This document shows, piece after piece, positions 12,228 to 26,222 of a stretch of 64,000 bases of DNA. This DNA is from Nocardioides jiangxiensis (GTDB lineage: Bacteria; Actinomycetota; Actinomycetes; Propionibacteriales; Nocardioidaceae): assembly GCF_030580915.1 (NCBI RefSeq), contig NZ_JAUQTA010000001.1:1550001-1614000 (forward strand). Reading direction: 5' to 3'. The notes beneath the pieces were generated by a model, which saw only the letters and a list, made by a program, of their open reading frames with translations, had not been told where the DNA came from and searched no databases. The number at the start of each line of letters is the position of its first letter. Position 1 is the stretch's first letter. Made by a program: the position numbers and the translations under genes.

Positions 12228-13727
12228 ATGACGATCACCCCCAGCCGCACCGGCCTCGTGCCGGCCTCGGTCCACGCCACCATCACCCGCCTCGACCCGG
12301 AGCACGGCCAGCACATCGCCGGCGCCGGACTCGCCGCCGGATCGGGTGCCACCTTCGACGTGCTCGACAAGGCCACCGGTGACCACCTGGCCACCTTCGC
12401 CGACGGCGGGGCCACCGAGGCCACCGCTGCCGTCGACGCTGCTGCCGCGGCGTTCCCCGGGTGGGCCGCGACGGCCCCGCGGGTGCGCGCCGAGGCGCTG
12501 CGCACGGCGTTCGCCCTGATGGTGGAGCGCTCCGAGGAGCTCGCCGCACTGATCGCCGCGGAGAACGGCAAGTCGCTCGCCGACGCCCGCGCCGAGGTCA
12601 CCTATGCGGCGGAGTTCTTCCGCTGGTTCGCCGAGGAGGCGGTCCGGCCCGAGGGCGACTTCGCCGAGTCGCCGGCCGGAGGCACCCGCACGATCGTCAC
12701 CAGCCACCCGGTCGGCGTCGCCGCCCTCGTCACGCCGTGGAACTTCCCGGCCGCGATGGCGACCCGCAAGATCGGCCCCGCCCTCGCCGCCGGCTGCACG
12801 GTGGTCCTCAAGCCGGCCACGGAGACCCCGCTCACCGCGCTCGCCGTGGCGCGGATCCTCGAGGAGGCCGGCGTCCCGGCCGGCGTCGTCAACGTCGTCA
12901 CCGGCACCGACCCGGGCGCCATCGTCGGCACCTGGCTCGCCGACTCCCGGGTCCGCAAGGTCTCCTTCACCGGCTCCACCGGCATCGGCCGGCTGCTCCT
13001 CGGCCAGGCGGCCGAGCGCGTGGTCAACAGCTCGATGGAGCTCGGCGGCAACGCCCCCTTCGTCGTCGCCGCCGACGCCGACCTCGACGCCGCGGTGGCG
13101 GGCGCGATGATCGCCAAGTTCCGCAACGGCGGCCAGGCGTGCACCGCCGCCAACCGGTTCTACGTCCACGCCGACGTGGCCGACGCCTTCACCGCGAAGT
13201 TCGGTGCCGCCATCGAGGCGCTGCACGTCGGGTCGGCGTTCGAGGAGGACACGGCGATCGGCCCGCTCATCTCGGCGAAGGCGGTCACCAACCTCTCCGC
13301 GCTGGTCGAGGACGCCGTCGCGCGCGGCGCCCGGATCAGCCACCGTGCCGGGACCAGCCCGCTCGAGGGCCACTTCTACCCGCCGACGCTGCTCGTCGAC
13401 GTCCCCGCCGACGCCGAGATCGTGCGCACCGAGGCGTTCGGCCCGGTCGCCCCGATCGTCACCTGGACCGACGAGGCCGACCTGCTCACGCAGGTCAACG
13501 ACACCGAGTTCGGCCTGGCCTCCTACGTCTACTCGCGCGACCTGCGGTGGGCGCTCAAGCTCGCCGAGCGGATCGAGGCCGGCATGGTCGGCGTCAACCG
13601 CGGTGTCGTCTCCGACCCGGCCGCGCCCTTCGGTGGCTACAAGCAGAGCGGCATCGGTCGCGAGGGCGCCCGCGAGGGCGTGCGTGCCTTCACCGAGACG
13701 CAGTACTTCTCCGTGGACTGGAGCTGA
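12228..13727 (+). CDS. gabD: Succinate-semialdehyde dehydrogenase
   Basis: 499 residues, aldehyde dehydrogenase superfamily, GabD branch. TPWNFPAAMATRKIGPALAAG, KPATETPLTA, FTGSTGIGR, general base Glu271 in ELGGNAPFV and catalytic Cys305 in GGQACTAANRFY are all intact, as is the C-terminal GGYKQSGIGREG. It oxidises succinate semialdehyde to succinate, the last step of the GABA route. It starts 44 bp after the dehydrogenase gene in the same direction. Confidence 0.95.
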   Translation: MTITPSRTGLVPASVHATITRLDPEHGQHIAGAGLAAGSGATFDVLDKATGDHLATFADGGATEATAAVDAAAAAFPGWAATAPRVRAEALRTAFALMVERSEELAALIAAENGKSLADARAEVTYAAEFFRWFAEEAVRPEGDFAESPAGGTRTIVTSHPVGVAALVTPWNFPAAMATRKIGPALAAGCTVVLKPATETPLTALAVARILEEAGVPAGVVNVVTGTDPGAIVGTWLADSRVRKVSFTGSTGIGRLLLGQAAERVVNSSMELGGNAPFVVAADADLDAAVAGAMIAKFRNGGQACTAANRFYVHADVADAFTAKFGAAIEALHVGSAFEEDTAIGPLISAKAVTNLSALVEDAVARGARISHRAGTSPLEGHFYPPTLLVDVPADAEIVRTEAFGPVAPIVTWTDEADLLTQVNDTEFGLASYVYSRDLRWALKLAERIEAGMVGVNRGVVSDPAAPFGGYKQSGIGREGAREGVRAFTETQYFSVDWS

Positions 13728-14140: not shown

Positions 14141-15340
14141 TCAGTCGCGGCGCGCCTCCAGCGCGAGGCAGAGCGCCGCGACGTCGCGCGGCCGGTCGAG
14201 CCGGCGCCCGGTCTTCTCCTCGAACCGGCGCAGCCGGTGCCGCACCGTGTTGGCGTGGCAGGAGAGCCGGGTGGCGGTCTTGGTGGCGGAGCCGCCGACC
14301 TCGACCCAGACCTCGAGGGTCTCCAGCAGCGTGTAGCGCTCGGCCTCGGCGAGGGAGTCCAGCGGTCCCAGCACGTCGTCGGCGACCCGGCCGAAGACGT
14401 CGCCGCTCGCGGCGACCGCGATGCCGACCGGGTCGTCGCCGAAGCGGAGCACCCCACCCGCTGCGGGTGCCGCCGCAGCCGAGAGCCGCGCCAGCTCCAG
14501 CGCGCGGGCCGCGCCGGTCAGGTCCTCGAAGACCGGGCTCACCCCTACCCGGGCACGTCCCTCGGCCTCGAGCACCTCGACCACGCGCTCCACGTGGACG
14601 GTGCCGGCGTCGATGATCCCGACCTGGACGTCAGGCAGCAGGCGCCAGGTCGACCGGCAGCCGACGCGCGCCAGCTCCGTCTCCACGCCCACCAGCGCCG
14701 AGCGACCCGGGGCCGGGAGGACGGCGGCCGCGACGACGTAGGTGCCGGCCACGGGCAGGCCGAGCAGGTCGGCCACCTCCCAGAGCGTGCGGCGGTCGAC
14801 CACCGTGCCGCTGAGCAGCGCCTCGACGAGCGCCGTCCGCTCCGCCTCCCGGCGGACCAGCTGCGCGGTCAGGGTGGCGTTGTACGCCGCCGACATCGCC
14901 TCGGTGAAGACGTCGTTGGCGACGACCGCGTCTGCCGCTGCGCCCACGACCAGCTCGGCCGGGATGCCCCGACGTGCGCACTCGTCGGCGACGTGCTCCC
15001 ACATCGTCCGGAACCCGACCCGGTACGCCGCGAGCACGGCCGGCAGCGGCACCCCCGCCTCGGCCCGTCGTACGCCGGTCGCGGCGGCGGGCGCCGGGTC
15101 GCCGACGACGCCGCGCGCCAGCCCGTCGATGACGAACCGGAGGTTCTCCTCGCAGCTCGCGGCCAGGTCGTCGAGGGTCACCACGCCGCTCTCGCGGTAG
15201 AAGTCGATCCGCTCGCGCACCTGGTGCGCCACCTCGACGCTCCGCTCGCGCAGCGTGCCGAGCAGGACCGCGGTGAGCCCGCCGAGCCGCTGCTCGACGG
15301 GGCCTGGTCCGGGGTCGACGGCATCGGTCGGGCTGGTCAT
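14141..15340 (-). CDS. PucR/CdaR-like transcriptional regulator
   Basis: 399 residues. The N-terminal two thirds are helical, with a GVPLPAVLAAYRVGFRTMWEH segment (about 95-115) found in PucR_1 / RsbR-like regulators of actinobacteria; the C-terminus carries the HTH_30 domain (VGGSATKTATRLSCHANTVR, then HRLRRFEEKTGRRLDRP). It diverges from the alpha-dioxygenase cassette across 184 bp that holds three related repeats, so it is the likely regulator of that cassette. The ligand is unknown. Confidence 0.85.
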   Translation of the reverse strand: MTSPTDAVDPGPGPVEQRLGGLTAVLLGTLRERSVEVAHQVRERIDFYRESGVVTLDDLAASCEENLRFVIDGLARGVVGDPAPAAATGVRRAEAGVPLPAVLAAYRVGFRTMWEHVADECARRGIPAELVVGAAADAVVANDVFTEAMSAAYNATLTAQLVRREAERTALVEALLSGTVVDRRTLWEVADLLGLPVAGTYVVAAAVLPAPGRSALVGVETELARVGCRSTWRLLPDVQVGIIDAGTVHVERVVEVLEAEGRARVGVSPVFEDLTGAARALELARLSAAAAPAAGGVLRFGDDPVGIAVAASGDVFGRVADDVLGPLDSLAEAERYTLLETLEVWVEVGGSATKTATRLSCHANTVRHRLRRFEEKTGRRLDRPRDVAALCLALEARRD

Positions 15341-15375: not shown

Positions 15376-15469
15376 GACGCCGTTGTCACGATCCACAGCC
15401 AACGTGCCGTGCCGTTGTGAAAAGTGAACGGCGTCACATCTGTTCATGGTGCTCCGCGCTCCCTATTGT
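15376..15469 (+). promoter_or_regulatory. Repeat-rich promoter region of the alpha-dioxygenase cassette
   Basis: Three copies of a GCCGTT/AACGGC-type motif occur: GACGCCGTTGTCAC (15376-15389), GCCGTTGTGA (15411-15420) and, inverted, GTGAACGGCGTCAC (15424-15437). The last two form an inverted repeat with 10-bp spacing (15411-15432). TATTGT at 15464-15469 is a plausible -10 for the downstream gene. I infer binding of the divergent PucR-like regulator. Confidence 0.5.
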
Positions 15470-15524: not shown

Positions 15525-16163
15525 ATGGACACCGACAGCACGGACCTCACCGCCGAGGAGCAGGTCGCCCGGTGGCGGGCGCTCGCCAGCACCCGGCCCG
15601 TCGACGCGGCCGCCGCCGCGTGGGACCGGATCCTCGAGCTCCAGGAGCTCGGTCGCAGCGACCGCAAGCAGGCCGACGCCCTGCTCAACGAGCTCTTCCG
15701 GGCCGGCTCGCCTGCCCGGGGCCTCGACGGTCCGACCGACGGGATCCTCGTGCTGACCACGACCACGGCGCTGACCGACGCGGCGCTCACCGCGCTCACG
15801 TCGGTGTGGATGCCGTGGGAGGGCAAGCGCTTCGACGCCGACACCCAGTCCGGCGACAACCGGATGACGGACGAGGCGACCGTGGTCAGCAAGGTGCTGT
15901 GGCCGCTGTACTCCATGAAGGACACCCCCGCCGGCAAGGTCGCCTTCAACTTCACGACGTACGTCGAGTCGGGCAAGGACGACCCCGACCGCGAGGTGAT
16001 GGTCATCGACTACGCCGACGTCAAGGACAACCCGCGGCTGCTGATCCGGAGCATCCGCGACGAGCTGGTCGAGCTGGTCGACGGCGCCTACCTCGGCAAG
16101 GTCCTCTACCGCCTGCCCACGCGCTCCTACGCGAAGCTCGGCTACTTCGCGCTCCGCACCTGA
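15525..16163 (+). CDS. Uncharacterised 212-residue protein, first gene of the alpha-dioxygenase cassette
   Basis: Family not recognised. No signal peptide or membrane helix. An N-terminal helical third (EEQVARWRALASTRPVDAAA) leads to a likely beta-barrel-like region: GILVLTTTTALTDAALTAL, SVWMPWEGKRFD near residue 90, KVAFNFTTYVESGKDD near 140, and IRDELVELVDGAYLGKVLYR near 180. The last segment resembles the closing part of lipocalin-like or calycin proteins that hold a hydrophobic ligand, which would suit a fatty acid or oxylipin carrier; this is a guess from pattern. GGAAGG precedes the ATG at 15525. It is 54 bp upstream of the dioxygenase gene. Confidence 0.8.
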   Translation: MDTDSTDLTAEEQVARWRALASTRPVDAAAAAWDRILELQELGRSDRKQADALLNELFRAGSPARGLDGPTDGILVLTTTTALTDAALTALTSVWMPWEGKRFDADTQSGDNRMTDEATVVSKVLWPLYSMKDTPAGKVAFNFTTYVESGKDDPDREVMVIDYADVKDNPRLLIRSIRDELVELVDGAYLGKVLYRLPTRSYAKLGYFALRT

Positions 16164-16217
16164 GCACCTGCACCCCCGCACGTCCGCCCGACCGAGTACA
16201 GCCCCCAGGAGACCCCG

Positions 16218-18050
16218 ATGAGCCCGAAGATCCCCAACCCGCTCGGCCTGCAGTGGTACCAGCACCCCTCGCTCACCCTGCAGCTCGCGGCCCTCTCCAA
16301 GGAGCGCGACGACCTCCGCGAGAAGAACCTGTTCGAGGGCGAGGGCATCCGCCCCGACAAGGACCTCGGCGAGGCACCCGAGGAAGCCCTCCGCGCGCGG
16401 ACGCCCGAGGGCGACTTCAACGACCTCGGCTGCCCGCACATGGGTGCGCGTGGCACCGGCTTCGGCCGCAACGTGCCGATCGAGAAGACCGTCGTCGACC
16501 GCAAGAACCTGCTCAACCCCGACCCGCGCGAGATCAGCCGGCGCCTGATGGCGCGCGACACCTTCAAGCCGGCCGGCATCCTCAACGCGCTCGGTGCCGC
16601 GTGGCTGCAGTTCGAGAACCACAACTGGTTCTTCCACGGCAACGGCGACCCGACGCGGTTCATCGAGATCCCGCTGCAGCCGGGCGACGACTTCCCCGAG
16701 AACCCCATGCGGATCCGCGACACCCTCCCGATGCACGGCGGGGAGATCAAGGACGGCTGCCCGGCACCGGTCTTCGCCAACGCCGAGACGCACTGGTGGG
16801 ACGGCTCGCAGATCTACGGCAGCGGCGCCGAGAAGCAGGCGACGATCCGTACCTTCAAGGACGGCAAGATCAAGGTCGACGACAACGGGCGCCTGCCGAA
16901 GAGCGACATCCCCGGTGTCGACCTGACCGGCATGCAGGAGAACTACTGGTTCGGCCCGGGCCTGCTGCACACCCTCTTCGCGCGCGAGCACAACGCCGTC
17001 GTCGACGCGATCAGGAAGTCCCACCCGGACCTCTCCGACCAGCGGCTCTTCGAGCTCGGCGTCCTCGTCGTCTCGGCCCTGATCGCCAAGATCCACACGG
17101 TCGAGTGGACGCCGTGCGTGCTGCGCCACCCGGCGCTGCAGATCGGCATGAGCGCCAACTGGTACGGCGCGCTGGGCGAGACGTTCCGCGACAAGGTCGG
17201 CCGGATCGGTGACTCCGAGGCCCTCTCCGGCATCGTCGGCTCCTCGACTGACCACCACTCCGCGCCGTTCTCGCTGACCGAGGAGTTCGTCTCCGTCTAC
17301 CGGATGCACCCGCTCATCCCGGACGACTGGTCCTTCTTCTCCCTGGCCAGCGGCGAGCACAAGTTCGACCGCTACTTCACCGACATCCAGGGCATGTACA
17401 CCCGGGACTTCATGGACAGCCTCGAGATGGGCGACATGTGGTACTCGATCGGCAAGGCGAGCGCCGGCGCGGTCTGCCTGAAGAACTACCCCAACGCACT
17501 GCGCAACCTGACCCGCATCGACGGCCAGGTCACCGACCTCGCGACGCTCGACATCGTGCGTGACCGCGAGCGCGGCGTCCCGCGCTACAACGACTTCCGC
17601 GAGGCGCTGCGCATGCCGCGGCGCAGGAAGTTCACCGACCTCACCCCCAACAAGGAGTGGGCCAAGGAGATCGCGGAGATCTACAACGGCGACATCGACG
17701 CCGTCGACCTCCAGATCGGCATGCAGGCCGAACAGCCGCCCAAGGGCTTCGGCTTCTCCGACACGGCGTTCCGGATCTTCATCCTGATGGCGTCACGCCG
17801 CCTCAAGAGCGACCGGTTCTTCACCAAGGACTTCACCCCGGCGACCTACACGAAGACCGGCTTCGACTGGGTCAACGACAACTCGATGAAGGACGTGCTC
17901 CTGCGTCACTACCCCGAGCTCGAGACGGTCATCGGCGACGTGGAGCGGGTCTTCGCCCCGTGGCACGAGCTCGGTGTCGCCGAGCCGGGCAAGAAGCCGA
18001 CGATCCTCCGCGCTGCCGACACCGTGAAGGCCTATCTGCCGTGGGGCTGA
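16218..18050 (+). CDS. Fatty acid alpha-dioxygenase-type heme peroxidase
   Basis: 610 residues, the length of plant alpha-dioxygenases (about 640). Similarity to Arabidopsis DOX1 runs through the chain: AAWLQFENHNWFFHG (distal His135, DOX1 has HDW), HWWDGSQIYG near 192, REHNAVVDA near 256, AKIHTVEWT near 290, MSANWYGALG near 311, LTEEFVSVYRMHPLIPD with catalytic Tyr361 and proximal His364 in YxxH, RDRERGVPRYNDFR near 455, and ASRRLKSDRFFTKDF near 530. The family inserts O2 at the alpha carbon of fatty acids, giving 2-hydroperoxides that decay to aldehydes one carbon shorter. No signal peptide is present, so it should be cytosolic. It sits 7 bp before the flavoprotein gene. The reaction is inferred from residue conservation. 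Confidence 0.88.
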   Translation: MSPKIPNPLGLQWYQHPSLTLQLAALSKERDDLREKNLFEGEGIRPDKDLGEAPEEALRARTPEGDFNDLGCPHMGARGTGFGRNVPIEKTVVDRKNLLNPDPREISRRLMARDTFKPAGILNALGAAWLQFENHNWFFHGNGDPTRFIEIPLQPGDDFPENPMRIRDTLPMHGGEIKDGCPAPVFANAETHWWDGSQIYGSGAEKQATIRTFKDGKIKVDDNGRLPKSDIPGVDLTGMQENYWFGPGLLHTLFAREHNAVVDAIRKSHPDLSDQRLFELGVLVVSALIAKIHTVEWTPCVLRHPALQIGMSANWYGALGETFRDKVGRIGDSEALSGIVGSSTDHHSAPFSLTEEFVSVYRMHPLIPDDWSFFSLASGEHKFDRYFTDIQGMYTRDFMDSLEMGDMWYSIGKASAGAVCLKNYPNALRNLTRIDGQVTDLATLDIVRDRERGVPRYNDFREALRMPRRRKFTDLTPNKEWAKEIAEIYNGDIDAVDLQIGMQAEQPPKGFGFSDTAFRIFILMASRRLKSDRFFTKDFTPATYTKTGFDWVNDNSMKDVLLRHYPELETVIGDVERVFAPWHELGVAEPGKKPTILRAADTVKAYLPWG

Positions 18051-18057
18051 TCCCCCG

Positions 18058-19983
18058 ATGACCGACGTGCAGCAGCGCGCAGACGCCGGCGTACTCGCCG
18101 TCCTCCTGGACGGCGAGTACGCCGCGTTGCGTGCCCGGGCCCGGGAGTTCCTCGTCGAGCACGCGGCGTTCCACGTCGAGGCCGAGTCGCTCGACCGCGA
18201 CGCCTACCGCGACCGGGTGCGCGACCTCGTGGTCGAGGCTGCTGCGCGGGGGCTGACGGCCTCCGGCTTCCCCGCCGCCTACGGCGGAAGCGAGGACTTC
18301 GGCGGCAACGTCGCCGCCTTCGAGACCCTGGCGTACGGCGACCTGTCGGTGCTGGTGAAGTTCGGCGTCCAGTTCGGGCTCTTCGGCGGCGCGATCCACC
18401 AGCTCGGCACCACCCGGCACCACGACGCCTGGCTCGCCGACATCGCCTCCGCCCGCCTGCTCGGCTCGTTCGCCATGACCGAGACCGGCCACGGCTCCAA
18501 CGTCCAGGCGATCCGGACCACCGCCACCTTCGACCCGGACACCGACGAGTTCGTCATCGACACCCCCGACGACGACGCCCGCAAGGACTACATCGGCAAC
18601 GCCGCGCGGCACGCGGAGGCGGCAGCGGTCTTCGCCCAGCTCGTCGTCGACGGCACCGGCCACGGCGTGCACGCGCTCTTCGTCCCGCTCCGCGACCCGA
18701 GCGGCGCGACGTTGCCCGGCGTACGGATCGAGGACTGCGGCACCAAGCTCGGCCTGCAGGGCGTCGACAACGGCCGGATCTGGTTCGACGGCGTCCGCGT
18801 CCCGCGGACCAACCTGCTCAACCGCTACGGCGACGTCTCCCCCGAAGGCGTCTACTCCTCGCCCATCGAGAACCCCGACCGCCGCTTCTTCACGATGCTC
18901 GGCACCCTCGTCCAGGGCCGGGTCTGCGTCGGCGGGGCGGGCATCACCGCGAGCAAGGTAGCGCTCACCATCGCCACCCGCTACGCCGCCGAGCGCCGCC
19001 AGTTCGGTGCGGCGGGCCAGCCCGAGACGGTCCTGCTCGACTACGGCCAGCACCAGCGACGGCTGCTGCCGCTGGTCGCCCGCACCTACGCCCTGCACTT
19101 CGCGCAGGAGCGGCTGGCCCGCGACTTCCACGAGGTCTTCACCGCCGGCGACGCCACGACCGAACGCCGCCGCCGCGCTCTCGAGTCGCGGGCTGCGGCC
19201 ACCAAGTCGCTGGCCACCTGGCACGCGACGCGGACGATCCAGGAGTGCCGCGAAGCCTGCGGCGGCGCCGGCTACCTGGCCGTCAACCGGTTCGCTGCGC
19301 TCAAGGCGGACACCGACGTCTTCACCACCTTCGAGGGTGACAACACGATCCTGCTCCAGCTGGTCGGCAAGGGCCGGCTGACCGACCTCAAGGACGAGTT
19401 CGGCTCGCTCGACGGCGTCGCGATGGCCCGCTACATCGGGCGCGAGGCGGCCGAGACGCTGGCCGAGAAGGTGATCGCCCGCTCCGTCATCGAGCGGGTC
19501 CGCGACGCGGCCCGCGGCCACGACGAGGGCGAGCCGGGTGGCGACCTGCTCGACCCGGCGTACCAGCTCCGGATGCTGCGTACCCGCGAGGAGCGGATCA
19601 CCGGCAGCGTCGCGCGCCGGCTGAAGGCCGGGATGGACGCCGGCGTCGACCCGGCCGAGGTGTTCAGCCGGTGCCAGCACCACCTGCTCGCCGCGGCGGC
19701 CGCCCACGCCGAGCGGATCGTGCTCGAGGCGCTGCTGACCAAGGTCGAGGCGATGCCCACCGGCCCCGAGCGCGACCTGCTCGCGAAGGTCGGTCACCTG
19801 CACGCGCTGTCCGAGATCGAGCGCGACCGGGCGTGGTGGATGGAGCACGGCCGGCTCTCGACCGAGCGTGCCAAGTCGGTGACCCGTGCGGTCGATACGT
19901 TGTGTCGCGAGCTCCGCGACGACGCCCTCACCCTCGTGGCCGCCTTCGGCGTCCCCGAACCCCTACTCACTCAGGAGATCTGA
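18058..19983 (+). CDS. Acyl-CoA oxidase/dehydrogenase family flavoprotein
   Basis: 641 residues, the length of acyl-CoA oxidases rather than short dehydrogenases (about 380). FAMTETGHGSNVQAIRTTATFD near 140 is the flavin-contact segment; GTKLGLQGVDNGRIWFDGVRVPR follows; ECREACGGAGYLAVNRFAALKAD and the catalytic base Glu426 in FTTFEGDNTILLQ are intact. It should introduce a 2,3 double bond into an acyl-CoA using FAD, with O2 (making H2O2) or another acceptor. Start ATG 18058 is 7 bp after the dioxygenase stop, and its TGA overlaps the P450 ATG by one base. Confidence 0.88.
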   Translation: MTDVQQRADAGVLAVLLDGEYAALRARAREFLVEHAAFHVEAESLDRDAYRDRVRDLVVEAAARGLTASGFPAAYGGSEDFGGNVAAFETLAYGDLSVLVKFGVQFGLFGGAIHQLGTTRHHDAWLADIASARLLGSFAMTETGHGSNVQAIRTTATFDPDTDEFVIDTPDDDARKDYIGNAARHAEAAAVFAQLVVDGTGHGVHALFVPLRDPSGATLPGVRIEDCGTKLGLQGVDNGRIWFDGVRVPRTNLLNRYGDVSPEGVYSSPIENPDRRFFTMLGTLVQGRVCVGGAGITASKVALTIATRYAAERRQFGAAGQPETVLLDYGQHQRRLLPLVARTYALHFAQERLARDFHEVFTAGDATTERRRRALESRAAATKSLATWHATRTIQECREACGGAGYLAVNRFAALKADTDVFTTFEGDNTILLQLVGKGRLTDLKDEFGSLDGVAMARYIGREAAETLAEKVIARSVIERVRDAARGHDEGEPGGDLLDPAYQLRMLRTREERITGSVARRLKAGMDAGVDPAEVFSRCQHHLLAAAAAHAERIVLEALLTKVEAMPTGPERDLLAKVGHLHALSEIERDRAWWMEHGRLSTERAKSVTRAVDTLCRELRDDALTLVAAFGVPEPLLTQEI

Positions 19984-21305
19984 TGGCCCTGGACTTCAAG
20001 CACGCCTCGATCGTCGAAGGCGTGCGGTTCACCGCCCAGGTCGGCGTCCCCAATGTCGTCCAGGGTCTCTTCAAGAAGCGTCCCGGAGTCGTCAGCACGG
20101 TCGGCAAGCTGCCCGCCGACGCCCTCGCGCACCGCCTGGTCGCCGGTCTCGCGGCGAAGTACGGCCCGGACCCGTTCTGGGTGCGGGTCGGCGGCGACGA
20201 GGCGCTGCTGGTCACCCACCCCGACGACCTCCGGATCGTGCTCGGTGGCAGCCCGTCGCCGTTCGCCTCCGACCCCGACGCGAAGCGCAAGGGCATGGCG
20301 GCGTTCCAGCCGACCGCGCTGACGATCTCGCGCGGCGACCTGTGGGCGGACCGACGGGCGTTCGCCGAGGCCGTGCTCCAGACCGCCTCGCCGCTCCACT
20401 CGCTGGCCGGCACCTTCGCCGCGATCGCCGCCGAGGAGGCCGATGCGCTCGCCACGTCGGGCGAGCTGACCTACGAGGCTCTCAACCTCGCCTTCCAGCG
20501 GCTCACCCGCCGCGTCGTCCTCGGCGACGCGGCCGCCGACGACACCGCGCTCACCGATGCGCTCGGAGAGCTGATGGCGGCGGGCAACAAGATGCCCGGC
20601 GCCCCCGCCGAGGGGTACGACGCCTTCCACGCACGCCTCGCCGCCTACGTCGCGGAGCCCGACGCCTCGGCACTGACCGGTCTGGTCGCTGGCGCTCCGA
20701 GCACGGCGGAGACCGACGTGCCCGGGCAGCTGATCCACTGGCTCTTCGCGATGGGCGACACCCTCCCGACCAACCTCTACCGCGCGCTCGCCCTCCTCTC
20801 GGCCCACCCCGACGCTCTCGCGCGGGTGCGTGCGGAGAGCGCCGGCGATGGTGGGGTCGAGGCGGTTGCCGGGTCGGCGTACCTCGCCGGGTGCATCCTC
20901 GAAGCCATGCGGCTGTGGCCGACGACCGCGCTCTTCGGCCGCGTCCAGGCGGAGGAGTACCGCTGGACCAACGGCCAGAAGACGCCGGTCGGCACCCAGC
21001 TCCTGATCCACAACCTCTTCAACCACCGCAACCCCGACCGGGTGCCGTTCGCGGACCGGTTCGCGCCGGAGGAGTGGAGCGAGGGCTCGGCCGGTGAGGA
21101 CTGGTCGTTCAACTTCTTCAGCCACGGGCCGCAGGGCTGCCCCGGCTACGGGCTGTCGATCTTCCTCGGCCAGGCGTTCCTGGGCCGGCTGCTCGCGCAG
21201 GTCACCCCGCGGATCACCCGCGGCACCGCGCTCGACGCCGGCAAGCCCCTGCCCTACGGCTGGGACGTGTACGCCGCGACGCTCGCGCTCGACCCGCTCG
21301 TCTAG
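19983..21305 (+). CDS. Cytochrome P450
   Basis: 440 residues. I-helix segment HWLFAMGDTLPTN keeps the acid-alcohol pair; the K-helix ExxR is Glu307-Arg310 (EAMRLWP); the heme ligand is Cys386 in FSHGPQGCPG. The usual arginine two residues before the cysteine in FxxGxRxC is Gln, a departure also worth noting for heme-propionate contacts. It has no N-terminal anchor, so it is soluble. It is the last gene of the cassette and starts at ATG 19983 inside the TGATG junction. It could act on the product of the dioxygenase or on a fatty acid; no redox partner gene is nearby. Confidence 0.9.
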   Translation: MALDFKHASIVEGVRFTAQVGVPNVVQGLFKKRPGVVSTVGKLPADALAHRLVAGLAAKYGPDPFWVRVGGDEALLVTHPDDLRIVLGGSPSPFASDPDAKRKGMAAFQPTALTISRGDLWADRRAFAEAVLQTASPLHSLAGTFAAIAAEEADALATSGELTYEALNLAFQRLTRRVVLGDAAADDTALTDALGELMAAGNKMPGAPAEGYDAFHARLAAYVAEPDASALTGLVAGAPSTAETDVPGQLIHWLFAMGDTLPTNLYRALALLSAHPDALARVRAESAGDGGVEAVAGSAYLAGCILEAMRLWPTTALFGRVQAEEYRWTNGQKTPVGTQLLIHNLFNHRNPDRVPFADRFAPEEWSEGSAGEDWSFNFFSHGPQGCPGYGLSIFLGQAFLGRLLAQVTPRITRGTALDAGKPLPYGWDVYAATLALDPLV

Positions 21306-21316
21306 TCGCCAACGCG

Positions 21317-21643
21317 TCAGTGCGCGCCTTGCAGGTTGAGGACCACGACGCCGGTGACGATCATCGCGAGGGCGGCGACCTTCGCGGCGTTGAGCGACTC
21401 CCCGAGCCAGAGCACACCGATCACCGCGACGAGCGCGGTGCCGAGACCCGACCAGATCGCATACGCCATCGAGACCGACATGTGCCGGATCACCAGCGCG
21501 AGCAGCCACGCCGAGAGGGCGTAGCCACCGAGCACCACCGCAGTCCAGACCGGGTCGCGGAAGCCGTCCGCCCTGGCGAGGGCGGAGGTCGCGGCGACCT
21601 CGAGGGCGATGGCGGCGATCAGCAGCGCGAACGCGGCGTACAT
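21317..21643 (-). CDS. Small multidrug resistance (SMR) transporter
   Basis: 108 residues, four membrane helices. The essential membrane glutamate is in ALEVAATSAL near residue 14, and MAYAIWSGLGTALVAVIG is the SMR signature, including the GLG dimer motif. SMR proteins exchange protons for quaternary amines, guanidinium or polyamines. It diverges from a TetR gene, with two 16-bp operators between. It ends 11 bp after the P450 stop on the opposite strand. Confidence 0.92.
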   Translation of the reverse strand: MYAAFALLIAAIALEVAATSALARADGFRDPVWTAVVLGGYALSAWLLALVIRHMSVSMAYAIWSGLGTALVAVIGVLWLGESLNAAKVAALAMIVTGVVVLNLQGAH

Positions 21644-21659: not shown

Positions 21660-21705
21660 TGTAGCAGGTGCTACACCCGAACTGTAGCACCTGCTACAGT
21701 TCGGG
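21660..21705. promoter_or_regulatory. Two TetR operators in inverted orientation
   Basis: TGTAGCAGGTGCTACA (21660-21675) and TGTAGCACCTGCTACA (21683-21698) are exact reverse complements; each is a 7-bp palindrome (TGTAGCA/TGCTACA) around a 2-bp centre. The second extends to 14-bp perfect arms (CCCGAACTGTAGCA, 21676-21689, and its complement, 21692-21705). They fill the gap between the SMR gene and the TetR gene, the normal position for a repressor of the exporter and of itself. Confidence 0.85.
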
Positions 21706-21726: not shown

Positions 21727-22287
21727 ATCGCGAAGGACCCGCAGCGCCGCGCCGCCTGGACCGAGGTGGCCACGGACTACGTGCTCGCGCACGGGCTGAT
21801 CGGCCTGAGCCTGCGCCCGCTCGCCGCCGAGCTCGGCACCAGTGACCGCATGCTGCTGTACCACTTCGGCACCAAGGACGAGCTCGTCGCCGACGTGCTC
21901 CGCTGCTCCAACGACCGCGCCGCAGCGAGCATCGCCGCGCTGGCACCGTCGCGCGACCTCCGCTCCGCCGTCGAGAACCTGTGGGCCGCGGTGCAGTCCG
22001 ACCCCGTCGACCGCTGCACACGGATCTACGTCGAGGCCTCCGCGCTCGGCCTCTTCGGCCAGGAGCCCTATGCCGCTGTGGTCCGTGCCGCCAACGCCGT
22101 GTGGACCGCCGCCCTGGTCGCCCACCTGGTGCGCTCCGGTGTCGCCGACGACCTCGCGCCGCGGGCGGCCGAGCTGGTCGACGCCGCGTTCATGGGCTTC
22201 CAGCTCGACCTGCCCCTCGACGTCGACCCGGCTGCGCGGGCCCGCTCCGTCGCCGACCTGGCCGACACGGTGGCAGCGCTGGCCTGA
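21727..22287 (+). CDS. TetR-family regulator, apparent ATC start
   Basis: 186 residues if translation begins at the ATC at 21727. GAGGAGG (21715-21721) lies at ideal distance, no ATG, GTG or TTG is in frame between the upstream stop (21685) and 21766, and starting at the GTG of 21766 would remove helix 1 of the DNA-binding domain (AKDPQRRAAWTE). The HTH then reads LSLRPLAAELGTSDRMLLYHFGTKDEL. The C-terminal ligand domain is unassigned. It probably represses the divergent SMR gene. A sequencing error or true ATG-to-ATC change are both possible. Confidence 0.8.
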   Translation: MAKDPQRRAAWTEVATDYVLAHGLIGLSLRPLAAELGTSDRMLLYHFGTKDELVADVLRCSNDRAAASIAALAPSRDLRSAVENLWAAVQSDPVDRCTRIYVEASALGLFGQEPYAAVVRAANAVWTAALVAHLVRSGVADDLAPRAAELVDAAFMGFQLDLPLDVDPAARARSVADLADTVAALA

Positions 22288-22289
22288 CG

Positions 22290-23705
22290 TCAGCCGTGGG
22301 CGTGCATCACGTGCTTGATGCGCGTGTAGTCCTCCAGGCCGTAGTGCGACAGGTCCTTGCCGTAACCGCTCTGCTTGAAGCCGCCGTGCGGCATCTCCGC
22401 GACGAGCGGGATGTGGGTGTTGACCCACACGCAGCCGAAGTCGAGCTCGATCGAGCACCGGTGGGCAGTGCCGTGGTCCTTCGTCCAGACGCTCGACGCG
22501 AGGCCGAAGTCGACGTCGTTCGCCAGCTCGATGGCCTCGGACTCCGTCTCGAAGGTCTGCAGCGTCACGACGGGCCCGAAGGTCTCCTGCTGGACCACGT
22601 CGTCGTCCTGGCGTACGCCGGCCACGAGGGTCGGCGCGTAGTAGTAGCCCTTCTCACCGATCCGGGCTCCACCCGTGACGACGCGAGCGTGTGACGGCAG
22701 GTTCGCGACGACGGAGCTCACCCGGTCGAGCTGCTGGGCGTTGTTGAGCGGGCCGTAGAACGGGTCCTCCACGTCGGGCCCGGTGGTCACGTCCGCGATC
22801 GCCTCGACCAGCTTCGCCTCGAGCGCGTCGGCGATCGAGGAGTGCGCCAGGATCCGGGTCACCGCGGTGCAGTCCTGCCCGGCGTTGAAGAACGCCCCGA
22901 CGACGATGCCCTCGACCGTCGCGTCGAGATCGGCGTCGCCGAAGACGATGGCCGGAGCCTTGCCGCCGAGCTCGAGGTGGACCCGCTTCACGTCCGGTGC
23001 GGCCGCGGCCGCCACCTGCTTGCCGGCGCCGGTCGACCCGGTGATCGAGACCTGCGCCGCCGCGGGGTGCGCGACGACGAGCTTGCCGGTCTCACGATCA
23101 CCCGCGAGCACGTTGAGGACACCGGGCGGCAGGATGCCGGCGGCGATCTCCCCGACCAGCGCGGCCGAGCCGGGCGTGGTGTCGGACGACTTCAGCACCA
23201 CGGTGCAGCCGGCGGCCAGGGCGGGAGCCACCTTCCAGATCGCCATCATGAAGGGGTAGTTCCACGGCGCCACCTGGCCGACGACGCCGACCGGCTCGCG
23301 GCGCACGTAGGAGGTGTGACCGGCCAGGTACTCGCCGGCCGCGCTGCCCTCGAGCGACCGCGCCATGCCGGCGAAGTAGCGGAGCTGGTCGATGCCGACC
23401 GTGATCTCCTCGTCGCGGGTCAGCGCCTCCGGCTTGCCGGTGTCGCGCACCTCGGCGGCCAGCAGGTCCTCGGCCCGGTCCTCCAGCGCGGAGGCCAGCG
23501 CGAGCAGCAGCTTCTGCCGCTCGGCCGGCGTCGTGCGGCGCCAGGTGCGGAAGGCCTCCGTCGCCGCCTCGTACGCCGCGTCGACGTCAGCCGCGCCGGA
23601 GAGCGCCGCGGTGTCGTGCACCTCACCGGTGCGCGGGTCGATGATCTCGCTGGTGCGACCGTCGGCGGCCGGGACGACCTTCCCGTCGATGACGTTGCTG
23701 ATCAT
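22290..23705 (-). CDS. patD: Gamma-aminobutyraldehyde dehydrogenase
   Basis: 471 residues, aldehyde dehydrogenase superfamily. VAPWNYPFMMAIWKVAPALAAG near 145, Glu245 in LELGGKAP, catalytic Cys279 in NAGQDCTAVTR, and the C-terminal NTHIPLVAEMPHGGFKQSG then YGKDLSHYGLEDYTRIKHVM match the YdcW/PatD branch. It oxidises 4-aminobutanal (in equilibrium with 1-pyrroline) to GABA. It begins 12 bp after the putrescine oxidase stop, so the toxic aldehyde is consumed by a co-made enzyme. Confidence 0.93.
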   Translation of the reverse strand: MISNVIDGKVVPAADGRTSEIIDPRTGEVHDTAALSGAADVDAAYEAATEAFRTWRRTTPAERQKLLLALASALEDRAEDLLAAEVRDTGKPEALTRDEEITVGIDQLRYFAGMARSLEGSAAGEYLAGHTSYVRREPVGVVGQVAPWNYPFMMAIWKVAPALAAGCTVVLKSSDTTPGSAALVGEIAAGILPPGVLNVLAGDRETGKLVVAHPAAAQVSITGSTGAGKQVAAAAAPDVKRVHLELGGKAPAIVFGDADLDATVEGIVVGAFFNAGQDCTAVTRILAHSSIADALEAKLVEAIADVTTGPDVEDPFYGPLNNAQQLDRVSSVVANLPSHARVVTGGARIGEKGYYYAPTLVAGVRQDDDVVQQETFGPVVTLQTFETESEAIELANDVDFGLASSVWTKDHGTAHRCSIELDFGCVWVNTHIPLVAEMPHGGFKQSGYGKDLSHYGLEDYTRIKHVMHAHG

Positions 23706-23717
23706 GGTGGTGTCCTT

Positions 23718-25061
23718 TCAGGAGCCGAGGATGTTGCGGGCGAGGCGGGTGCCCATGCGCACCGCCCCGTCGACGTGCTGGAAGCCGAGGCCGGCGACGT
23801 CGCTGGAGCCGAACCGGATCGGACCGACCGGCTCGTGGAGCTTCGCGCCCCAGCGGGTCAGGCTGCCGACGTCGAAGCTGGTCGCGTAGGCGCCGCCGGT
23901 GAGCTCCTGGTGCTGCCAGTCGCTCTCGACGTACGTGCGCGGGGTGAGGGCGGCGTCGCCGAAGTACGCCGCGAGCGACTGCAGGATCGCGGCCCGCCTC
24001 TCGTCGGCGGGGAGACGGCCCATGGCGTCGGCGTTGACGTCGGAGACGAAGCCGACGAGCGTGCCGGTCTCCTTGCCGTGCAGGGTGTTGTCGTAGACCT
24101 CGTGCACGAGCTCCCACGGGCCGAAGCCGGTGCCCGACAGGCCCGCCGACCGCCAGAACGGGGTGTCGTACTCCACCTGCGCCTTGATGACCAGGCCGAA
24201 CGACTGGTGCTCGCGGGCGTGGCGGTGCTCGGCGGGGAGCCCGGGGGTGATCCGGATCCGGCGGACGTGCGTCGGGGGCAGCGCGAGGACGACGTTGCGC
24301 GCGCCGACCTGCTCGCCGTCGACCGTGACGACCGCGCCCTCGTCGTCCCAGGCGACGTGGGTGACGTCGGCCGAGAGGCGCACGCGGTCGCCGAGGCGGG
24401 CGGCCAGCGCGGCGGGCACCGAGGCGAGGCCGCCGACCACGCGCTTGTCGAGGATGAAGTCGGCGTCGACGAGGTGGGAGAAGGAGCCGGCGCTGGCGGA
24501 CATGAGCACCGCGGTCAGCGCGGAGAACGAGTGGGTCGGCTTGGTGAGCATCGCCGGGCCGAGGTAGAGGGCGATGTTGTCGCGGGCCTCGTCGTCTGTG
24601 GTCTGCGCGTCGAGCCACTGGGCGAAGCTGACCCGGTCCAGCTCGGCGGCCTGCGGATGCTCCCACGGGCGGTCGGGGTCCATCTGCGCGGCGAGGTCGT
24701 CGATGACGCCGATCAGGCGGTCGATCTCCTTGCCGGTCTGCTCCTCCACCGGGAGGTCCTCGCCGGTGAAGCGGCGGGCGGTGCGGGTGCGGTCGACGTA
24801 GAGCGAGTCGCCGTCGCGGAAGCGGGAGTAGGTCGCGAGGCCGAGCTCGTCGAGGAGGGCGATCAGCGCCTCCTGGTCGGGCGAGACCCACTGACCACCG
24901 ATCTCGAAGTCGGACCCGTTGTGATCCTCCGTGCGCAGCCGGCCGCCGACGCGGTCCCGCGCCTCGAGGACGAGGACGTCCTGGCCCGCCTCGGCGAGGC
25001 GCCAGGCGGCGGTGAGGCCGGTGACGCCGGCTCCGACGACGACGGTGTCGTAGCTCTTCAT
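23718..25061 (-). CDS. puo: Putrescine oxidase (flavin amine oxidase)
   Basis: 447 residues. The FAD Rossmann motif VVGAGVTGLTAA is at 8-19, GGR at 39-41, and IGGQWVSPDQEALIAL near 54. The C-terminal YATSFDVGSLTRWGAKLHE, VGPIRFGSSDVAG and FQHVDGAVRMG resemble actinobacterial putrescine oxidases (Micrococcus/Kocuria, Rhodococcus). It oxidises putrescine to 4-aminobutanal, NH3 and H2O2 in the cytosol. It leads the puo-patD operon. A TTTGAA-N5-TTCAAA palindrome lies just upstream. Other monoamine oxidases are the alternative call; the partner gene favours putrescine. Confidence 0.9.
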   Translation of the reverse strand: MKSYDTVVVGAGVTGLTAAWRLAEAGQDVLVLEARDRVGGRLRTEDHNGSDFEIGGQWVSPDQEALIALLDELGLATYSRFRDGDSLYVDRTRTARRFTGEDLPVEEQTGKEIDRLIGVIDDLAAQMDPDRPWEHPQAAELDRVSFAQWLDAQTTDDEARDNIALYLGPAMLTKPTHSFSALTAVLMSASAGSFSHLVDADFILDKRVVGGLASVPAALAARLGDRVRLSADVTHVAWDDEGAVVTVDGEQVGARNVVLALPPTHVRRIRITPGLPAEHRHAREHQSFGLVIKAQVEYDTPFWRSAGLSGTGFGPWELVHEVYDNTLHGKETGTLVGFVSDVNADAMGRLPADERRAAILQSLAAYFGDAALTPRTYVESDWQHQELTGGAYATSFDVGSLTRWGAKLHEPVGPIRFGSSDVAGLGFQHVDGAVRMGTRLARNILGS

Positions 25062-25077
25062 GATCGATGCCCAATCT

Positions 25078-25109
25078 TTTGAATGCTGTTCAAACTTGGA
25101 TCCACCGTA
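25078..25109 (-). promoter_or_regulatory. puo promoter with polyamine-regulon operator
   Basis: On the minus strand -10 TACGGT (25109-25104) is followed after 9 bp by the palindrome whose + strand reads TTTGAATGCTGTTCAAA (25078-25094). The same 9-bp spacing occurs at aguA. The operator therefore lies at the start of the transcript, 17 bp before the puo ATG. The arms TTTGAA/TTCAAA are perfect. Confidence 0.7.
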
Positions 25110-25148
25110 AGCCTCATCGATGTGGCGCGCAACACCCCGGCCGGAAAA

Positions 25149-26222
25149 TCAGCTCCCCGTCGTTTCACGGGAAACCGCCGCGACGAGTGCGTCGACGTCC
25201 TGCTCCGTCGTGTCGAAGCTGCACATCCAGCGCACCTCGCGCGTGGACTGGTCCCAGTCGTAGAAGCGGAAGCCACGTCCACGGAGCCGCTCTGCCACTC
25301 CCTCCGGGAGGGAGGCGAAGACGCCGTTGGCCTCCGTCGGCAGGCGCAGCCCGACCCCCGCGATGGTGCCGTCGGCCAGACCCGCGTCGATGGCGGTGCG
25401 CAGGCGCTGCGCCATCGCGTTCGCGTGCCTGGCGTTGCGCAGCCACAGGTCTCCGTCGAGCAGCGCGAGGAGCTGCGCCGAGACGAACCGCATCTTCGAG
25501 GCGAGCTGCATGTCGAGCTTGCGCAGGTAACGCAGCCCGCTCGACGCGTCGGGGTCGAGGACGACGACCGCCTCGCCCAGCATCGCGCCGTTCTTCGTCC
25601 CGCCGAGGCTGAGCACGTCGATGCCCACGTCCCGCGTGATCGCGCCGAGGCCGACGCCGAGCGAGGCGGCGGCGTTGGCGAGGCGCGCGCCGTCCATGTG
25701 CACGCGCATCCCGCAGGCATGCGCGTGGTCGGCGAGCGTCCGCAGCTCGTCCGGGGTGTAGACCGTGCCGACCTCCGTCGCCTGGGTGATCGAGACGACC
25801 AGGGGCTGCGCCCGGTGCTCGTCGCCCCAGCCCCACGCCTCGCGGTCGAGGAGCTCGGGCGTCAGCTTGCCGTCGGGCGTCTCGACGGGAAGCAGCTTGA
25901 TGCCGGCGACCCGCTCCGGGGCGCCGGCCTCGTCGGTGTTGATGTGGGCCGTCGCCGCACAGACCACCGCACCCCACCGCGGCAGCATCGACTGCAGCCC
26001 GACGACGTTCGCTCCGGTGCCGTTGAAGACCGGCCACGCCTCGGCGCCGGCGCCGAAGTGCCGGACGACCACCTCCTGCAGCCGCGCGGTGTACGCGTCC
26101 TCGCCGTAGGCGACCTGGTGGCCGTCGTTGGCGGTGGCGATCGCCGCCAGCACCTCCGGGTGGATCCCGGCGTAGTTGTCCGAGGCGAAGCCCCGCACGC
26201 GGGGGTCGTGGAGAGGGGTCAC
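25149..26222 (-). CDS. Threonine aldolase-type PLP lyase
   Basis: 357 residues, GTG start 26222 overlapping the DUF6421 stop by four bases. Beta-eliminating lyase fold: FASDNYAGIHPEVLAAI at 12-28, HINTDEAGAPERVAG near 93, the PLP-aspartate in HMDGAR (175-180), and the PLP lysine Lys210 in LSLGGTKNGAM. Low-specificity L-threonine aldolases cleave beta-hydroxy amino acids to glycine and an aldehyde; aminotransferase-like relatives exist. Its tight link to DUF6421 suggests a joint pathway. A parS-like sequence forms its VSRET near the C-terminus. Confidence 0.85.
   Translation of the reverse strand: MTPLHDPRVRGFASDNYAGIHPEVLAAIATANDGHQVAYGEDAYTARLQEVVVRHFGAGAEAWPVFNGTGANVVGLQSMLPRWGAVVCAATAHINTDEAGAPERVAGIKLLPVETPDGKLTPELLDREAWGWGDEHRAQPLVVSITQATEVGTVYTPDELRTLADHAHACGMRVHMDGARLANAAASLGVGLGAITRDVGIDVLSLGGTKNGAMLGEAVVVLDPDASSGLRYLRKLDMQLASKMRFVSAQLLALLDGDLWLRNARHANAMAQRLRTAIDAGLADGTIAGVGLRLPTEANGVFASLPEGVAERLRGRGFRFYDWDQSTREVRWMCSFDTTEQDVDALVAAVSRETTGS
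25162..25175. other. Degenerate parS-like site
   Basis: GTTTCACGGGAAAC differs from the parS core GTTTCACGTGAAAC at one base. It lies within the last codons of the threonine-aldolase gene and encodes VSRET, the same peptide that canonical parS sites encode in parA and rsmG here. It is 8 kb from the parAB genes. Binding by ParB is uncertain. Confidence 0.45.

Follow-up and report, generated by a model that had tools for sequence, protein, structure and literature searches.

The 64-kb stretch of the Nocardioides jiangxiensis genome analysed here (contig NZ_JAUQTA010000001.1, positions 1,550,001–1,614,000; hereafter the window) carries on its plus strand four co-directional genes (15525–21305) for a predicted barrel protein (ORF1), a fatty-acid alpha-dioxygenase (DOX), an acyl-CoA oxidase family flavoenzyme and a cytochrome P450. 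The DOX–P450 pair is the core of this cassette and ORF1 its frequent third part, while the acyl-CoA oxidase is a later addition, made on more than one occasion, unless a resident copy took the place of an older one. On balance, we lean towards reading the locus as a fatty-acid alpha-oxygenation cassette, in which DOX would make a 2-hydroperoxide and the P450 would take it over at C2; every reaction in this scheme is one that we infer. The cassette and its regulator are arranged as follows:

14141–15340, minus strand: regulator of the PucR/CdaR type (Pfam HTH_30, E 5.5e-20, and GGDEF_2)
15416–15438, plus strand: candidate operator TGTGA-N13-TCACA between the PucR gene and the operon, function putative
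15525–16163, plus strand: ORF1, DOX companion of 212 aa, with a predicted three-helix N-terminus and lipocalin/calycin-like beta barrel
16218–18050, plus strand: alpha-DOX, 610 aa (PF03098, An_peroxidase, E 3.6e-92, 310 bits; PDB 4kvj/4hhr, E 1e-113)
18058–19983, plus strand: acyl-CoA oxidase family flavoenzyme, 641 aa (PF01756, PF22924; ACOX, ACOX_C_alpha1 and acyl-CoA dehydrogenase domains)
19983–21305, plus strand: cytochrome P450 of the DOX-companion family, 440 aa (PF00067, E 2.9e-16, C-terminal half only)

The ORF1 stop (16163) and the DOX start (16218) are separated by 54 bp and the DOX stop (18050) and the next gene (18058) by 7 bp, while the acyl-CoA oxidase and P450 genes overlap by 1 bp (TGATG, at 19983); the PucR gene is divergent. 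This layout had been described in an earlier note made from the letters of the same DNA, and was confirmed from the sequence and with Pfam. The genome (3.0 Mb, two contigs, 99% complete) has one An_peroxidase gene, three P450 genes (read from four matches) and two acyl-CoA oxidase-type genes, plus two weaker acyl-CoA dehydrogenase-like matches.

Judged by its sequence, the window peroxidase is an alpha-DOX by family membership. Its best solved relatives are the rice (4kvj) and Arabidopsis (4hhr) enzymes (E ~1e-113, residues 54–581), and cyclooxygenase (COX) and lactoperoxidase match it at 1e-16 or weaker. All ten active-site positions checked are kept in the window DOX. In an alignment of 106 rows (the window, two plant chains and 103 loci, including two fragments and several genes fetched twice), Tyr361, His364, His293, Trp297, Thr298, Phe357, Phe518, Phe521 and Arg528 are identical wherever a row has a letter. 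Catalytic Tyr361 and proximal His364 are present in 105 rows (1 gap), and distal His135 is His in 89 rows and Arg or Lys in 15, with 2 gaps; these three residues, singled out in the earlier note, do align with the plant ones. H293, T298 and R528 are the counterparts of rice H311, T316 and R559, which position the carboxylate and C-alpha, and F357 and F521 form the Phe pair; the roles of most of these residues were assigned for rice DOX in the portions of Kim et al. 2021 (PMC8720084) drawn on here. The same portions present an alpha-DOX tree that already has Actinobacteria sequences, and describe the distal His as partly conserved (PMC8720084). The literature consulted covers three cyanobacterial enzymes (CalDOX, LepDOX and CsDOX) in vitro and states that little is known outside plants.

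The label 'plant-type' held for the family, the best solved relatives being plant alpha-DOX, but not for the closest relatives, which are bacterial where named. The 120 best of 7604 DOX matches are 73–92% identical and bacterial wherever an organism name is given, and the closest named one among the matches listed comes from Nocardioides baekrokdamisoli (Nocardioidaceae, 91%). The DOX tree, reduced from 106 to 82 rows by dropping partial, duplicate and near-identical ones and calculated with no outgroup, places plant alpha-DOX in one clade on a long branch. Its residues and its relatedness to solved structures place it with alpha-DOX, not with other peroxidases; a peroxidase without oxygenase function is not favoured, the residue tests being against it. 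Plasmid pCAL6303.01 of Calothrix sp. PCC 6303 encodes a DOX that shares 48.6% identity with that of the window over 94%. It is probably the characterised CalDOX, because all eight CalDOX residue numbers checked fit it, the text of PMC8720084 used here naming no strain PCC 6303. Plasmid-borne alpha-DOX genes were seen in Calothrix sp. PCC 6303 (L234), Rhizobium phaseoli (L235, with a frame of ~940 aa) and Qingshengfaniella (L236); they lie near a glucose–methanol–choline (GMC) oxidoreductase and a patatin-like phospholipase, or near cytochrome c genes, with no P450 annotated nearby. Among the neighbours of these three genes there was no ORF1 match, and the hypothetical proteins gave no informative Pfam family. 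The G+C content over the window DOX gene (16001–18000) falls to 67.5%, against 74% and 72% in the flanking 2-kb pieces.

There is good support for tying this P450 line to DOX. When the genome collection was scanned once with a P450 alignment, the best 80 matches yielded 79 loci, nine of which (L116–L124, from Amycolatopsis, 25–29% identical over part of the query and with an Arg heme loop) were set aside. The remaining 70 were examined up to 10 kb on either side of the P450, some being cut by contig ends; not all of them are independent, as L086 and L087 share one genome and L107 and L109 another. DOX lies within the fetched stretch at 63 of the 70, on the same strand in 57, with no more than 150 bp between the aligned parts in 52 of those, and an accidental neighbourhood was rejected on this linkage. 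The pairs come from Actinomycetota, Verrucomicrobiota, Planctomycetota, Thermodesulfobacteriota and Pseudomonadota. Gene order is not fixed (DOX–P450, P450–DOX or divergent), a sign that selection acts on the pair. The distance matrices of DOX and P450 over 58 loci correlate with r 0.80, a value reached in 0 of 2000 permutations (largest 0.37); common descent with the host alone would also give such a correlation, and there are some swaps. On the 82-row DOX tree, presence of the P450 changes 8 times, compared with 25.6 in shuffles.

Varying order and partners, and the unrelated look of an efflux pump and a TetR regulator next to the window cassette, would also suit a linkage due to common regulation or hitch-hiking on one island, with no shared pathway. 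We regard this as very improbable in view of the linkage at 63 of 70 loci across five phyla despite changing order, of an ORF1–DOX fusion, and of the same enzyme class having joined twice (both described below). The window DOX and P450 are separate genes, unlike those of the one-polypeptide fungal DOX-CYP (linoleate diol synthase, LDS), and no DOX–P450 fusion was noticed among the loci, for which no dedicated search was made; at L051 and L092 long frames overlap, yet DOX and P450 sit in different frames. The P450 beside DOX reads as two pieces at L111:10001–11060 and L114:10001–11216.

The linkage of all four genes expected from the earlier note is conserved for DOX and the P450, but the four stand together at only 17 of the 70 loci. 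The window acyl-CoA oxidase (PF01756, 66.6 bits, cut-off 22.1; PF22924, 147.8 bits, cut-off 27; best PDB relative 5ys9, acyl-CoA oxidase 3) has counterparts such that 20 of the 70 loci, some cut by contig ends, carry the enzyme. It is located between DOX and P450 in the window, L046 and L080, and after the P450 in mycobacteria. The window copy shares 63% identity with its paralogue in the same genome (G000:C1:1897163–1899073) and 48–57% with the copies in mycobacterial cassettes. When 31 sequences were placed in a tree, the cassette copies of Nocardioides grouped with resident Nocardioides copies and the mycobacterial ones with resident mycobacterial copies; forcing all cassette copies into one clade costs 321 log-likelihood units (p-AU 1e-6, approximately unbiased test). 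This tree and test reject a single origin of the four-gene operon, with acyl-CoA oxidases that are orthologous throughout, and judged from these sequences the enzyme joined the cassette at least twice from resident genes, or a resident copy replaced an older one. In four of the five mycobacterial genomes searched that have a cassette acyl-CoA oxidase, this copy was the sole match at E 1e-60. Its repeated joining, or replacement, is a hint that the pathway includes its reaction. That two lineages have an acyl-CoA oxidase next to this pair, each drawn from a different resident gene, makes an unusual natural experiment on pathway assembly.

The joining of an H2O2-making family in two lineages can also be read as a peroxide-coupled cassette, in which H2O2 from the acyl-CoA oxidase would activate the DOX heme and drive the P450 as a peroxygenase (2-hydroxylation), the two acting in parallel and not in sequence. 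The odd heme loop of the P450 fits this, as does the finding of no redox-partner gene among the recurring neighbours annotated, which were representatives only. Most DOX–P450 pairs do without the acyl-CoA oxidase, however, and we consider such a coupling improbable.

The third component, ORF1, is predicted to be a lipocalin/calycin-like beta barrel with a three-helix N-terminus. A PDB sequence-profile search with ORF1, and Pfam on 17 members at E up to 10, gave nothing convincing, and the Pfam scan of the window assigned it no family. In one genome, that of Antrihabitans cavernicola, ORF1 is fused to DOX (L094:7512–9986). This unnamed domain takes part in another type of fusion in Solirubrobacter soli (L097:2757–4970, minus strand), where a GMC oxidoreductase has an ORF1-like stretch at its C-terminus (residues 601–728).

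The AlphaFold2 model of the window P450 has a pLDDT of 94.6 and a Foldseek match to 7wzm with E 1.2e-16. The heme-ligand Cys386 is invariant in the P450 alignment, and the ExxR motif reads EAMR in the window, some relatives having Asp at the Glu place. Two positions ahead of the heme Cys stands Gln384; among the 68 loci that could be read there, 66 have Gln, L079 has His and L103 has Met; the portions of Oliw 2026 (PMC13049297) used here give Arg or His as frequent at this position in P450s. The missing Arg or His is no bar to P450 membership, which stands on the fold and the Cys. In a sister P450 clade (L023–L045 and L217–L229, mostly family f3, genus g28) the Arg place of the heme loop is mostly Ala and the I-helix mostly reads Asp-Ala-Ala; the 13 stretches fetched for this clade contained no DOX.

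At four of the 70 loci (L082, L083, L084 and L093, all from metagenome-assembled genomes, MAGs), the I-helix place of the Asp-Thr pair reads Lys-Ala-Asn, GDTL being changed to KANQ or KANE. These P450s form one clade in the P450 tree (97 rows reduced to 89, several others having been dropped earlier), and DOX and ORF1 are still there. Their ratios of non-synonymous to synonymous substitution (dN/dS) are 0.12–0.18 (four pairs, one locus being a contig-end piece), like the 0.11–0.20 of Asp-Thr relatives (four pairs), and because of this likeness the Ala-Asn P450s, still under purifying selection, look functional without the O2-activating pair of ordinary P450s. Further DOX loci, from a genus designated g74, have distant P450s upstream of DOX; three of five I-helices were readable, with Asp-Ala-Cys (two) or Asp-Leu-Ser (one) at the Asp-Thr place. 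Oliw 2026 (PMC13049297), in the portions used here, places an Asn near the iron in plant allene oxide synthase (AOS) and prostacyclin synthase, and describes a fungal AOS with Thr there as self-sufficient; loss of the Asp/Glu-Thr pair is therefore not an absolute mark of a hydroperoxide P450. Neither CYP74 nor prostacyclin synthase was among the fold and sequence matches listed for the window P450.

What the P450 may deliver is suggested by its neighbours. All five g74 loci (L171, L176, L178, L180 and L186) carry, in this order, a thiamine pyrophosphate (TPP) enzyme, a GlcD-like FAD oxidase, the P450, an alpha/beta hydrolase-like protein and DOX; gene families were scanned in one representative each and the remaining loci by tblastn. 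In L171, the TPP enzyme matches the benzoylformate decarboxylase model with 649 bits (cut-off 493), and the FAD oxidase matches GlcD with 415 bits, below the cut-off of 568, its best solved relative being glycolate oxidase. Together the five genes give the impression of a cluster for fatty-acid alpha-oxidation. Similar TPP and FAD genes are also found upstream of the P450 in Mycolicibacterium sp. J2 (L113), which has no DOX within 10 kb, and a FAD fragment lies near the P450 in L095. Since genes like those for 2-hydroxyacid oxidases and 2-oxoacid decarboxylases adjoin this P450 line, we suggest that its product is an acid oxygenated at C2. Two RoxA-like dihaem cytochromes (L115:6410–9437) come after ORF1, P450 and DOX in L115, a gammaproteobacterial locus. 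Other neighbours were an Old Yellow Enzyme (OYE) family gene after the P450 in L101 (L101:3449–4861), a luciferase-like monooxygenase by the DOX–P450 pair at L110:6818–8017 and, in mycobacterial cassette loci, a recurring 365-aa protein without clear family (L072:3786–4883 and seven further loci) and a short-chain dehydrogenase (L061:8417–9385 and nine further loci).

The fatty-acid alpha-oxidation theme of the earlier note is supported as a theme, its reactions being inferred only. In the sequence of events that we favour, alpha-DOX would add O2 to C2 of a free fatty acid and yield the 2-hydroperoxy acid, as its family and conserved active site suggest. The P450 would then take this unstable compound, most likely consuming the hydroperoxide and so forestalling decarboxylation; reduction or isomerisation would lead to a 2-hydroxy, 2-oxo or diol product. 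ORF1, with its predicted lipocalin-like barrel, may hold a lipid or hand it over. Here, and separately in mycobacteria, the acyl-CoA oxidase may take the shortened or tailored acid as its CoA ester, or alternatively supply H2O2 that primes the heme. The cassette would be switched by PucR through the TGTGA-N13-TCACA site.

A bolder version, possible but rather doubtful to us, is that bacteria, starting from the alpha-DOX branch, evolved a cascade of their own that corresponds to fungal DOX-CYP and mammalian COX–P450. A 2-hydroperoxy acid, handed over by the barrel, would be converted by a new, self-sufficient class of Gln-loop P450 to a defined C2-oxygenated product, which would then be decarboxylated, or CoA-activated and oxidised, and would serve as a signal or special lipid and not as fuel.

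Several observations weigh against a sequential action of DOX and P450 at C2. The P450 fold is ordinary, its nearest relatives among the matches listed being CYP184A1 with oleate, CYP97, CYP3A4 and BM3, and the I-helix of the window P450 keeps Asp259-Thr260, an Asp/Glu-Thr pair being found in 66 of the 70 loci. P450s without the I-helix Thr may still be monooxygenases, as are P450cin and EryF. The Ala-Asn clade is known only from MAGs, and the g74 P450s are 31–36% identical to that of the window, one of the three readable ones having Ser at the Thr place. Kribbella-type relatives lack both the Arg and the Thr, and in 13 stretches of ~17–18 kb their P450 neighbourhoods contained no DOX and no clear pathway; loss of Arg and Thr therefore does not prove hydroperoxide use. 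The pairs from the last four of the phyla named above all come from MAGs, and the DOX of L102 and L115 are of a long, divergent form (27–29%). The window genome has no close GlcD (34–38%) or benzoylformate decarboxylase (28%), so that its own end product may differ.

The two partners also occur apart. The P450 was found without DOX at L050, L074, L095, L103, L104, L107 and L113, although in L074, L095 and L103 it begins less than 1.8 kb from the end of the fetched stretch. Counting the window genome in both samples, DOX is present in 15 genomes out of 198 for the family and in 28 out of 394 for the class. The class sample held 34 DOX places, of which 28 besides the window were fetched and 5 were left unfetched; a companion P450 was nearby in 4 of the 28, a distant P450 (31–36%) was upstream in 5, and 19 had none. 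In the family sample, the companion P450 was present at 8 of 14 fetched DOX places and absent at 6, some contigs being short. The many DOX places without it mean that the dioxygenase does not need this P450.

Much of this evidence bears on the main rival, a catabolic alpha-oxidation of acids barred from beta-oxidation (e.g., 3-methyl-branched ones). DOX would remove C1 as CO2, either the P450 or an aldehyde dehydrogenase would oxidise the aldehyde, and beta-oxidation of the shortened acid would begin with the acyl-CoA oxidase, with the P450 a normal monooxygenase acting on the aldehyde or the chain end. The kept Asp-Thr pair, the closeness (among the matches listed) to a P450 crystallised with oleate and the acyl-CoA oxidase in the cassette of two lineages of separate origin all speak for it. 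So do aldehyde dehydrogenase genes: one lies near the window cassette (12228–13727, by Pfam), and an aldehyde-dehydrogenase-like gene (31%) directly follows the DOX–P450 pair in L109 (L109:4142–5386) and fits an aldehyde product. Relatives of the window aldehyde dehydrogenase, however, were found at only 6 of the 70 loci (31–36%), mostly several kb off, and on this count the enzyme was rejected as a steady cassette part. Furthermore, the GlcD-like and 2-oxoacid-decarboxylase-like genes at P450 loci point to C2 and not to the chain end, and the Ala-Asn clade is hard to square with O2 activation. We hold the catabolic route to be a serious alternative, although an unlikely one, and keep to the C2 hand-over from DOX to P450 as the preferred reading.

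The regulator recurs too: PucR relatives (38–78% identity) stand inside the cassette at seven of the 70 loci (L046, L080, L054, L055, L085, L086 and L088). The candidate site is the only match to its pattern in the window, and the same site lies in the same gap of L046 (5403) and L080 (5367); none of 16 other loci scanned had it. PucR, acting through this candidate site, is the probable switch of the cassette. Of the earlier interpretation, the alpha-DOX assignment made from sequence, the linkage, this regulator and the alpha-oxidation theme all stand; what is sharpened is the make-up of the operon, with the DOX–P450 pair as its core.

Just past the window cassette, a gene for an SMR-type efflux protein (21317–21643, minus strand) is divergent from one for a TetR-family regulator (21766–22287, plus strand), and the gap between them contains TGTAGCA-NN-TGCTACA in two opposed copies (21660–21700), a likely operator. 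Further on (22290–26750, minus strand) are consecutive frames whose labels, read from the sequence, are aldehyde dehydrogenase, flavin monoamine-oxidase-like and threonine-aldolase-like, and which look like amine catabolism.

Variants of the cassette turn up in many bacteria, suggesting an uncharted route of fatty-acid shortening or tailoring. With its companion genes known, the role of bacterial alpha-DOX can be put to the test, since P450, ORF1 and acyl-CoA oxidase lend themselves to joint expression in Escherichia coli. Should the P450 work on the hydroperoxide without a reductase, it would represent a new self-sufficient P450 class and a useful catalyst; should it not, a bacterial route of fatty-acid alpha-oxidation would be defined. 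Among the titles and abstract openings listed from the open-licence PMC literature, a scope outside which most subscription journals lie, none describes a bacterial alpha-DOX with a P450 companion.

Compared with plant and cyanobacterial alpha-DOX, the window enzyme shares the family, near-full-length homology, the catalytic Tyr, both heme His, the His/Thr/Arg carboxylate site and the Phe pair. To our knowledge, plant alpha-DOX are encoded by stand-alone genes; the window DOX has a companion P450, ORF1 and acyl-CoA oxidase. The surroundings of the Calothrix plasmid DOX differ as well: it has the GMC oxidoreductase and the patatin-like phospholipase nearby, and the annotation shows no P450 within 8 kb of it. 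The jasmonate route consists of a dioxygenase, an AOS P450, an allene oxide cyclase (AOC) barrel and an acyl-CoA oxidase, i.e., the same four protein kinds (the barrel being predicted here), and the OYE-family gene after the P450 in L101 adds to the analogy, which is an analogy only: alpha-DOX acts at C2, from which no path leads to a jasmonate-type allene oxide, and the comparison rests on protein kind, not on homology of the barrel or P450 to AOC or AOS. The favoured reading resembles COX with prostacyclin or thromboxane synthase in its logic, in which one enzyme makes a peroxide and a P450 that can do without O2 acts next. The window P450, in contrast, has no special closeness in sequence or fold to these partner P450s among the matches listed, and keeps its Asp-Thr.

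The fungal linoleate DOX-CYP fusions (LDS, AOS and epoxyalcohol synthase, EAS), in the portions of Oliw 2026 used here (PMC13049297), likewise pair a heme dioxygenase of the peroxidase–COX superfamily with a P450. The window has two separate proteins, and its dioxygenase belongs to the alpha-DOX and not to the 8/9/10-DOX branch; the Cys pocket reads HxC in all LDS of that account (PMC13049297), versus Gln in the window P450. Among bacteria, the 10S-DOX/7,10-diol synthase operon of Pseudomonas aeruginosa (PA2077/PA2078) sets a fatty-acid dioxygenase in tandem with a heme enzyme that processes the hydroperoxide; there the partner enzyme relieves hydroperoxide toxicity, according to the portions of PMC4496055 used here. 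Both of its enzymes are of the dihaem cytochrome-c type (PMC4496055), the class of the RoxA-like cytochromes in L115, whereas the window pair consists of a peroxidase–COX family enzyme and a P450. A dioxygenase in tandem with a hydroperoxide-handling heme enzyme is thus already known from the fungal DOX-CYP and from P. aeruginosa, and the alpha-DOX/P450 cassette is a variant of this arrangement.

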